Source of the DNA: Candidatus Gastranaerophilales bacterium
GTDB taxonomy: Bacteria; Cyanobacteriota; Vampirovibrionia; Gastranaerophilales; Gastranaerophilaceae
Reading direction: 5' to 3'
DNA: 64,000 bases
Assembly (NCBI GenBank): GCA_944324445.1
Contig: CALUWL010000004.1
Span: 1-64,000 of the forward strand
Part shown: positions 41,720 to 44,375 of the stretch, piece after piece
How the letters are laid out: each line of letters begins with the position of its first letter
Numbering within the stretch: position 1 is the first letter of the stretch
The notes under the pieces: generated by a model
Seen by the model: only the letters and a program-made list of their open reading frames with translations
The model's database searches: none
What the model was told of the DNA's origin: nothing
Program-made: the position numbers and the translations under genes

Positions 41720-42106
41720 ATGAGTCAAGTTCAAAATATAACTAAATATGATGAAACAAGTATTCAATCAAATGAATCAAACAGATTTTCAACTTGCGAA
41801 GAAATAGTTGAACAACTTGTTGAACAAGGGCTTCCAAAAACCTTTTCACCTGTTAATTTTATAAATAAAATCGCAAAAGCGTATAATATAAATTCTCAAG
41901 AAGCAAGAACCTGTTTAAAACTTGCCATAAAACAACTTGAAGCTTCAAAAAGCGATGAAAATTATCAAAAAGAAGAAAAGTTATACGGACAATCCGGATA
42001 TTTCTATCCAAGCGGATATACAACTGAAATATCAGGAAAAAAAGACGGTATGGATAGTTTATCTTCATTAGGAAATTACAATAAATTGATGTTTGGATTA
42101 CGCTAA
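41720..42106 (+). CDS. Small protein of unknown function
   Basis: A 128-residue protein. The first ~25 residues are Ser/Gln/Asn-rich. A helical region follows (about 25-80; CEEIVEQLVEQGLPKTFSP; EARTCLKLAIKQLEAS), and the last ~45 residues are Gly/Tyr/Ser-rich. No known domain, signal peptide or membrane helix is visible. AAGG lies 7 bases before the ATG. The last codons form the left arm of the terminator hairpin that ends the gene. Confidence 0.78.
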   Translation: MSQVQNITKYDETSIQSNESNRFSTCEEIVEQLVEQGLPKTFSPVNFINKIAKAYNINSQEARTCLKLAIKQLEASKSDENYQKEEKLYGQSGYFYPSGYTTEISGKKDGMDSLSSLGNYNKLMFGLR

Positions 42107-42202: not shown

Positions 42203-43906
42203 ATGAAAATTAATCCGGTTAGTTTGAATTGCACAAATTACAGCAATTTTAAAAATACAAAAAAAACTATTGCTTTTTTAGGCAGCATAAGCAAAGATTC
42301 TTTTGAATCAGTTAATTCAGGTCAAGTAACAAAATTAAGAGGAGAACTTTCCGCAGAAGAAATAAAAGACATTTTAGATAAAATGACACCTGAAAACCTT
42401 ATTTCAAAAACCGGACAAAGAGAAGTCTATAAAATAAACGGAAAAATTGTTAAAACAACAGCAACCCCTGAAAGTAAAAATTTTGTTACGGCTGAAAATT
42501 TTGCACTTGAAAAACTTTTTGAAGACAATATAACAACAACAGCAAAACCATTAGGATTATTTGATATCAAAGGAGATAACCAATTTTACGAAGGCGTAAG
42601 ATATTTTCAAATTCAAGAACCGATAGATGCAAAATCAATAGGCACAAATCCCGAAAACTATTCAACGGAAATGTTCAAAAAGTATTTATCAGCTTTATTT
42701 GATTTAGACGAAAAAGGTTTTATCAACCATAATTTAACTCCTGAAAACATAGGAATTACACCAAATGGTGATATCAAAATATTTAATTTTGGTAATTTTA
42801 GCTTTATTAATGACTATGGTGAAACACTAAATACTTCTAAAGAAGAAAGAGCTTCAATCAGCAATTTTTTCAACAGCACAAAAAAACAAGCAAAAGATAG
42901 AATGTCATTAATTTTTACAAAAGCACGAGTACTTTTTGACAGTAATCAGGCAATTTTTCTTCAAAACCCCAAATTACCTTTAGCTTCAAATGTATCTGTT
43001 TTTGAAACGTCAGTTTTATACCCTTATTTAACAGATAAAAATACTCAAAATCCTCTTGAAACTTTTATAAGTTATCTAAAAACAAAAGGAGAGGTTTATT
43101 GCCCCAAAATGACTGCTTTTATCGAAAATTTTGAAAATATAAACTCTCAACATGCAAACCCCGAATATGCAAAAAAATTAAAATGCGATGCTCTTAATTA
43201 CCAAAAAATATTACAAAAATTACTTTCAAAAGAAGATACAGACATTATTCAAGCAGAAGCCGCAATGATTCAATTTAAAAAATCTGTAAAAGAAAACAAA
43301 AAACCTAACGGCGGTGAAGTTTTAACAGCATATAATCAATTAACCGAAATATTGAATAAACTTATTGCTTCTGAAGACGAATCAATTAAAAAATATGCAT
43401 CAATAAATCTTGAATATTCAAAAAAAACATATGGTAACTTAGGGATAAGTATTTTTACCCAAAAAGAACCGCTAAAAACCAATCTTGTTGAAATATTATT
43501 CCCAAAAGCAAAAGAAATTAGCGAAACTTTTGAACCGCAAAATATAGAAGAACAAATTAAAACTACAGCAAAAGAAACCGCTAAAATGCTTGAAGAATCA
43601 TTAGAAGACACTATAGAAACAATTAAACAAACAACAAAAAGCACTGTCGAAAATGTGCAAACAGCTAAAAATTCTGTGGTAAATGAAGGGGTTGCTCAGC
43701 TGAAAAAATCAAAAGCACCAATTGCAATTGCAGGGATAATTGCTTTTGGAGGTATAGCAGGGTTGTTAAAACTAATCAAAAAAAACAAATTTAAAAACCC
43801 AACCCCAAAACCAAATATAATAAAAAGCAGCCCAATAAACCTAACAAATAGAATTATTACAAACTATAATGCCAACAAAGATACTTTTAAAAGCTTTATT
43901 CATTAA
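42203..43906 (+). CDS. Pseudokinase-like membrane protein
   Basis: A 567-residue protein starting MKINPVSLN, followed by NFK at 15-17 (the recurring N-terminal signature). Residues ~60-215 look like a compact kinase fold: VYKINGKIVK (75-84) for the Lys strand, AENFALEKLF (97-106) for helix C, and FINHNLTPENIGI (173-185) for the catalytic loop. In that loop the HRD Asp is N177 and the usual Lys is T179. N182 is kept, and DFG reads NFG (195-197). So catalysis is doubtful. Residues ~220-500 are helical. One membrane helix lies near 508-528. Its role is unknown. It ends overlapping ispF by 11 bases. Confidence 0.85.
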   Translation: MKINPVSLNCTNYSNFKNTKKTIAFLGSISKDSFESVNSGQVTKLRGELSAEEIKDILDKMTPENLISKTGQREVYKINGKIVKTTATPESKNFVTAENFALEKLFEDNITTTAKPLGLFDIKGDNQFYEGVRYFQIQEPIDAKSIGTNPENYSTEMFKKYLSALFDLDEKGFINHNLTPENIGITPNGDIKIFNFGNFSFINDYGETLNTSKEERASISNFFNSTKKQAKDRMSLIFTKARVLFDSNQAIFLQNPKLPLASNVSVFETSVLYPYLTDKNTQNPLETFISYLKTKGEVYCPKMTAFIENFENINSQHANPEYAKKLKCDALNYQKILQKLLSKEDTDIIQAEAAMIQFKKSVKENKKPNGGEVLTAYNQLTEILNKLIASEDESIKKYASINLEYSKKTYGNLGISIFTQKEPLKTNLVEILFPKAKEISETFEPQNIEEQIKTTAKETAKMLEESLEDTIETIKQTTKSTVENVQTAKNSVVNEGVAQLKKSKAPIAIAGIIAFGGIAGLLKLIKKNKFKNPTPKPNIIKSSPINLTNRIITNYNANKDTFKSFIH

Positions 43907-44375
43907 TTAAATCAACCAAAACAATTGCCTGAGCTGAAATAGATTGCCCCTCTCCCATTGAATCTAGTTTCTCATTGGTTTTTGCTTTAATTGAAACTTG
44001 ATTTAACTCAAGATTCATAGTTTCAGCTAATTTTTTTCTCATATCATCTATATAGTTTGATAATTTTGGTTTCTGACAAATTATATTAGTATCAATGTTA
44101 ACTATCCTATAGCCTTCGTTTTTCAGTATTTTACAGGTTTCTTTTAATAGTTCAAGACTATCTGCGCCTTTATATTTTTCATTGGTATCCGGAAAATGAT
44201 AACCTATATCACGTTTAGCAATTGAACCTAAAATAGCATCAATTATAGCATGAGATAAAACATCGGCATCACTATGACCCAACAAACCCAATTCGTAAGG
44301 AATCTTAATTCCACCAAGTATCAAATCCCTATCTTGAACCAATTTATGAATATCGTAACCTAAACCTATTCTCAT
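43896..44375 (-). CDS. ispF: 2-C-methyl-D-erythritol 2,4-cyclodiphosphate synthase
   Basis: A 159-residue enzyme of the MEP isoprenoid pathway. GYDIHKL gives metal ligands D8 and H10; HSDADVLSHAI gives the third His. IGYHFPDT and KTNEKLDSMGEGQSI, quoted by short parts, match the family. It makes the cyclic precursor for isopentenyl diphosphate, the substrate of UppS and of the UbiA-type protein's prenyl donor. It overlaps the upstream HAD gene by 4 bases (ATGA). Confidence 0.97.
   Translation of the reverse strand: MRIGLGYDIHKLVQDRDLILGGIKIPYELGLLGHSDADVLSHAIIDAILGSIAKRDIGYHFPDTNEKYKGADSLELLKETCKILKNEGYRIVNIDTNIICQKPKLSNYIDDMRKKLAETMNLELNQVSIKAKTNEKLDSMGEGQSISAQAIVLVDLINE

Follow-up and report, generated by a model that had tools for sequence, protein, structure and literature searches.

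A predicted membrane-tethered pseudokinase in an undescribed kinase-like family of Gastranaerophilales

Introduction

What becomes of a protein kinase once its catalytic acids are gone? The question is raised by a gene in the stretch of DNA analysed here, a 64,000-nucleotide window from a Candidatus Gastranaerophilales contig, in which a block resembling the catalytic and metal-binding loops of kinases carries asparagines at the positions of both aspartates. Bacterial pseudokinases are well recognised as a class and largely unexplored experimentally (PMC12599244). A literature search, made mostly without subscription papers, returned none that joins Gastranaerophilales or Melainabacteria with a pseudokinase. 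The remark in the first-pass annotation that descriptions of such proteins are rare for bacteria of this type is in keeping with that search. Below we ask in turn whether the protein is a kinase relative, which residues it has lost and in what order, on which side of the membrane it would lie, and whether the gene is maintained or decaying.

The gene and its kinase homology

The reading frame and the positions of the motif residues are as first annotated. The parts of the gene and its two flanking neighbours are as follows.

42203..43906, + strand: pseudokinase gene, a single open reading frame of 567 amino acids with a full-length orthologue in genome G020
42203..42322, + strand: N-terminal leader, residues 1-40, with an IAFLG motif at 23-27; predicted disordered, without a hydrophobic signal
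42398..42607, + strand: kinase N-lobe, residues 66-135, with its strands, Lys84 and helix C bearing Glu98
42725..42748, + strand: catalytic loop NHNLTPEN, residues 175-182, with Asn177 for the HRD Asp and Asn182 kept
42785..42793, + strand: NFG in place of DFG, residues 195-197
42965..43522, + strand: all-helical family-specific region following the active site, residues 255-440
43544..43708, + strand: long predicted pre-membrane helix, residues 448-502, of low sequence conservation
43721..43777, + strand: single membrane helix, residues 507-525, with Lys on its flanks
41720..42106, + strand: orf128, conserved upstream neighbour on the 5' side of the slot
43896..44375, - strand: ispF-like gene, convergent, bounding the slot on its 3' side and overlapping the pseudokinase stop with its own 3' end

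The catalytic-loop block FINHNLTPENIGI spans residues 173-185 and IKIFNFGNF residues 191-199. Lys84 is encoded by AAA (42452-42454), Glu98 by GAA (42494-42496), Asn177 by AAT (42731-42733), Asn182 by AAC and Asn195, at the DFG-Asp position, by AAT.

Taken alone, the protein has no kinase match in Pfam or NCBIfam, and its kinase membership rests on its relatives and on profiles. As a single query it matched nothing in the genome contigs. A phmmer search of the PDB reached E = 0.037, nearly all matches being kinases aligned on the catalytic loop. PADLOC returned a weak match to the kinase PD-T4-6 (E = 0.002, residues 150-209), which we read as kinase homology only and not as a role in phage defence. 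The profile comparisons rule out a chance resemblance: the window protein and its orthologue, taken as a pair, match a profile of ordinary bacterial Ser/Thr kinases with a probability of 95 and E = 2e-8, and match nine intact-site relatives, profile to profile, at E = 9e-38. In the Ser/Thr kinase alignment HNLTPEN falls on LDLKPGN and FNFG on IDFG; over the longer stretch GFINHNLTPENIGITPNGDIKIFNFG of the pair lies on GIIHLDLKPGNIMINKEGTARLIDFG of the kinases, which places Asn177 and Asn195 on the two Asps. We also considered, and rejected, an alignment in which the Asp is displaced: the loop contains none that could take its place, and the motif of the orthologue aligns free of gaps.

The wider family gives the same picture. 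Its profile retrieves kinases from the PDB (E = 2.9e-9), Pfam Pkinase is matched by 18 of 21 members at E<0.001, and two relatives score above the curated cut-off. Like bacterial Ser/Thr kinases of PF00069, the window protein presents a Lys strand, a helix-C Glu, a loop ending in Asn and a loop ending in -FG, the motifs matching in order and spacing; it differs in that the HRD and DFG Asps are both Asn. The ABC1/UbiB family (PF03109) is also matched, by 14 of 21 members, and the family has a DLQxGN-type loop, but the match is weaker than that to PF00069 for most members and the window protein itself has none. By these comparisons the window protein is a relative of protein kinases and, on its residue losses, a predicted pseudokinase, as the first-pass annotation had proposed.

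Catalytic residues across the family

Members of the family were found in 89 of 383 Gastranaerophilales genomes (E<1e-5), and it constitutes an undescribed kinase-like family of this lineage. Homologues with both Asps intact exist and align in the same register as the window protein, the point on which the original reading might have failed. The HRD Asp is present in 69 of 71 members; one exception is a misaligned insertion and the other is the window protein, the sole member with Asn there, this Asn177 resting on one base in one metagenome-assembled genome. The DFG Asp (position 195) is present in 66 of 71, and is replaced by Asn in three confidently aligned members, namely the window protein, its orthologue and L010 (L010:691-2583), which reads NFD, keeps the HRD Asp and lies on a branch separate from the other two. 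The window protein thus lacks both acids of active protein kinases (Asn177, Asn195) and retains their beta-3 Lys and helix-C Glu (Lys84, Glu98), the upstream Lys strand and helix-C Glu of the first description. The third replacement then listed, Lys to Thr179, does not stand as a loss of this protein in particular, since Lys is missing there in most family members (DLQ, DLS, DLN).

The losses extend to the glycine loop. In 37 relatives, 27 columns reach a conservation of at least 90%; the window protein keeps 17 of them, including Glu98, Asn182, Asp169 and Gly172, and the ten that it has lost include Gly70 (here Thr), Asp177 and Asp195. Since both acids and the glycine-loop Gly are gone, phosphotransfer would be very unlikely; with the Lys-Glu pair and Asn182 still present, the fold may be retained, perhaps together with a nucleotide pocket. 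The orthologue in G020 keeps the HRD Asp (NFDLSPEN) and already reads NFG, which points to a simplest order of loss in which the DFG Asp would have gone first and the HRD Asp second, in the window lineage. Elsewhere in the family a subfamily of about 600 amino acids (L045-L051) has Arg for the beta-3 Lys and keeps the catalytic Asp and DFG; two of its members, L049 and L050, come from different genera and are nearly identical, suggesting recent transfer.

Described pseudokinases offer partial parallels. ActPs2 (PMC12599244) shares the Asn at the HRD Asp and a C-terminal transmembrane region; compared by description only, it differs in being actinobacterial, in having Arg for the beta-3 Lys, where the window protein keeps Lys84, in its mostly deleted DFG and in its large insertions. 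EssB/YukC of type VII secretion (PMC12599244) is likewise a membrane-anchored, non-catalytic kinase-like domain, although all its motifs are degraded and it sits within a conserved secretion locus, of a kind not seen here.

A predicted kinase-like core with a helical second half

Structure prediction agrees with the sequence comparisons, though the models are not independent of them because both were built on alignments of kinase relatives. For the window protein the AlphaFold model, built on a 21-sequence alignment (mean pLDDT 69.9), orders its strands and helices like a kinase N-lobe, with helix C at 91-107, the catalytic loop following a helix at 155-170 and NFG following a strand at 191-193. 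Foldseek against the PDB gave protein kinases for 50 of 50 among the matches listed, with probability 1.00. An intact-site relative, L085, is modelled with higher confidence (mean pLDDT 79.7, 334 residues at 90 or above), its PDB matches being kinases and two lanthipeptide synthetases with a kinase domain; here too an N-lobe and an active site of kinase type precede an unusual half made up of helices alone.

The predicted kinase arrangement, in secondary structure order and by Foldseek, is thus one of N-lobe and active site. The C-terminal half superposes poorly on the PF00069 C-lobe: long alignments to kinases give high rmsd and low TM-scores, since what follows the active site is a region of helices specific to the family, in which NP, SN and FE motifs (residues 255-440) are kept across members. 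On these models the family should be termed kinase-like, with a divergent C-terminal half.

Membrane helix and cellular side

Residues 507-525 form the only strongly hydrophobic stretch (Kyte-Doolittle 2.26), and this C-terminal membrane helix, correctly recognised at the outset, proves to be the best-conserved segment of the protein (62% identity to the orthologue over residues 501-529). The accompanying suggestion of an exported or surface protein is not borne out: the N-terminal 60 residues peak at a hydropathy of 0.24 and contain no signal peptide, so the protein lacks the N-terminal hydrophobic signal expected for export, and the MKI start with its following I-x-F-x-G motif is widespread in the lineage, on unrelated proteins included. 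The IAFLG of the leader corresponds to ISFKG in many relatives.

The motif itself can be written [ILVT]-[STA]-F-[KGLQT]-[GASTN] (ISFKG, TSFGA, VSFKA) and often follows an MKI-type start, within N-terminal residues 20-60. Among 382 open reading frames from the window and L085-L102, a sample biased by family members, it occurs 70 times in bins 0-59 and about once per later 20-residue bin, examples being the window gene at 42203 and neighbours in L090, L093, L095 and L096. It may be a lineage-wide N-terminal signal.

Locus and tempo of evolution

Across the genus the gene order LRR gene, orf128, ispF, HAD gene is kept, and the pseudokinase occupies the slot between orf128 and ispF in two of 16 genus genomes compared (the window genome and G020); two of the remaining compared genomes also lack orf128. 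The slot is variable (L123, L127, L131, L132, L133) and in some genomes empty. Open reading frames of about 90 amino acids fill it in G021, G025, G016 and G019, and in G001 it holds one of 127 amino acids that starts with MKI and includes a membrane helix; its kinship to the pseudokinase is only a candidate one. There is no conserved kinase or phosphatase neighbour of the pseudokinase gene.

The syntenic orthologue belongs to another species of the genus and is full length, with 37% identity measured end to end, whereas neighbouring proteins of the two genomes are 75-85% identical. In identity at four-fold sites the pseudokinase (0.39) resembles its neighbours (0.37-0.58), so that the protein evolves fast and the locus is not old; the same neighbour-like value fits vertical descent, and the idea that the window gene arrived recently by horizontal transfer is not favoured. 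Conservation is higher at codon positions 1 and 2 (0.57, 0.60) than at position 3 (0.46). Identity to the orthologue is 54% over residues 136-203, the catalytic-loop region, and 54% over 254-312, and falls to 20-42% outside the conserved stretches.

A gene that lost its activity first and now drifts towards deletion, without present function, could show some of these features, and the rarity of the gene at the locus, its low identity relative to its neighbours, tree tips of about 1.05 changes per site and the short G001 frame at the same site would all fit. We consider this unlikely. Neither lineage has a stop, against about 21 per lineage (minimum 11) in a neutral simulation to the same divergence; identity is uneven along the protein, the membrane helix and active-site region standing out against 20-26% in other stretches, and constraint therefore persists and is patterned. 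The upstream, promoter-bearing regions of the two genes are also alike, which again speaks against decay; a promoter scan scored at shuffle level. This is fast evolution rather than plain decay.

A probable non-catalytic partner and its alternatives

Most likely the window protein is an enzyme turned non-catalytic partner that evolves unusually fast. More specifically, it is probably a tail-anchored, cytosolic, membrane-tethered scaffold or regulator built on a kinase-like core. That core has lost both catalytic acids and would retain the fold, with the Lys84-Glu98 pair and Asn182, and is joined through the helical region and the long helix to the C-terminal membrane helix. The domain would no longer perform phosphate transfer and would act by shape, with or without metal-free nucleotide; by analogy with EssB/YukC, we infer that it may bind a partner on the membrane's cytosolic face and scaffold or gate it.

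Two further readings appear improbable, and about equally so. In the first, the protein would be an active enzyme of changed chemistry, comparable to the AMPylase SelO or the glutamylase SidJ, that uses Lys84, Glu98 and Asn182 and has in Asn195 a weak ligand for metal. Those three residues are kept, and two family branches carry Asn at the DFG position, so that function may tolerate it, but SelO and SidJ keep an acidic DFG residue (table in PMC12599244) that the window protein lacks, along with the HRD Asp and the glycine-loop Gly.

The second would make it the allosteric partner of an intact-site relative in the same genome (G000), as a pseudokinase-kinase pair. This relative (C69:4375-5730, L002) is 31% identical to the window protein, reads NGIINCDLQAGN and LIDFG with both Asps intact (DLQAGN, DFG), and gives the genome's sole Pkinase match, although it lies on a 6.5-kb contig that may be misbinned, which leaves its genome membership uncertain. 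G020, moreover, has the orthologue and no second family member, and the relative (L002, L004, L005, L008) is 89-94% identical between species whose ispF proteins are 72-76% identical to that of the window, and hence appears to move between species. The Ser/Thr phosphorylation set of G000 is very small, and a PP2C_2 phosphatase was not found there.

Significance

A predicted pseudokinase, an orthologue that is half degraded and many intact-site relatives all occur in one uncultured gut lineage. With all three states in one lineage, the order and the consequences of catalysis loss become directly comparable. In addition, the family presents a kinase-like fold whose helical C-terminal half is divergent. 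Tentatively, we see here a lineage-restricted, membrane-tethered kinase-like family with a new helical C-terminal half, one branch of which may have become stepwise, rapidly diversifying pseudokinases that would serve as a fast-evolving interaction module.
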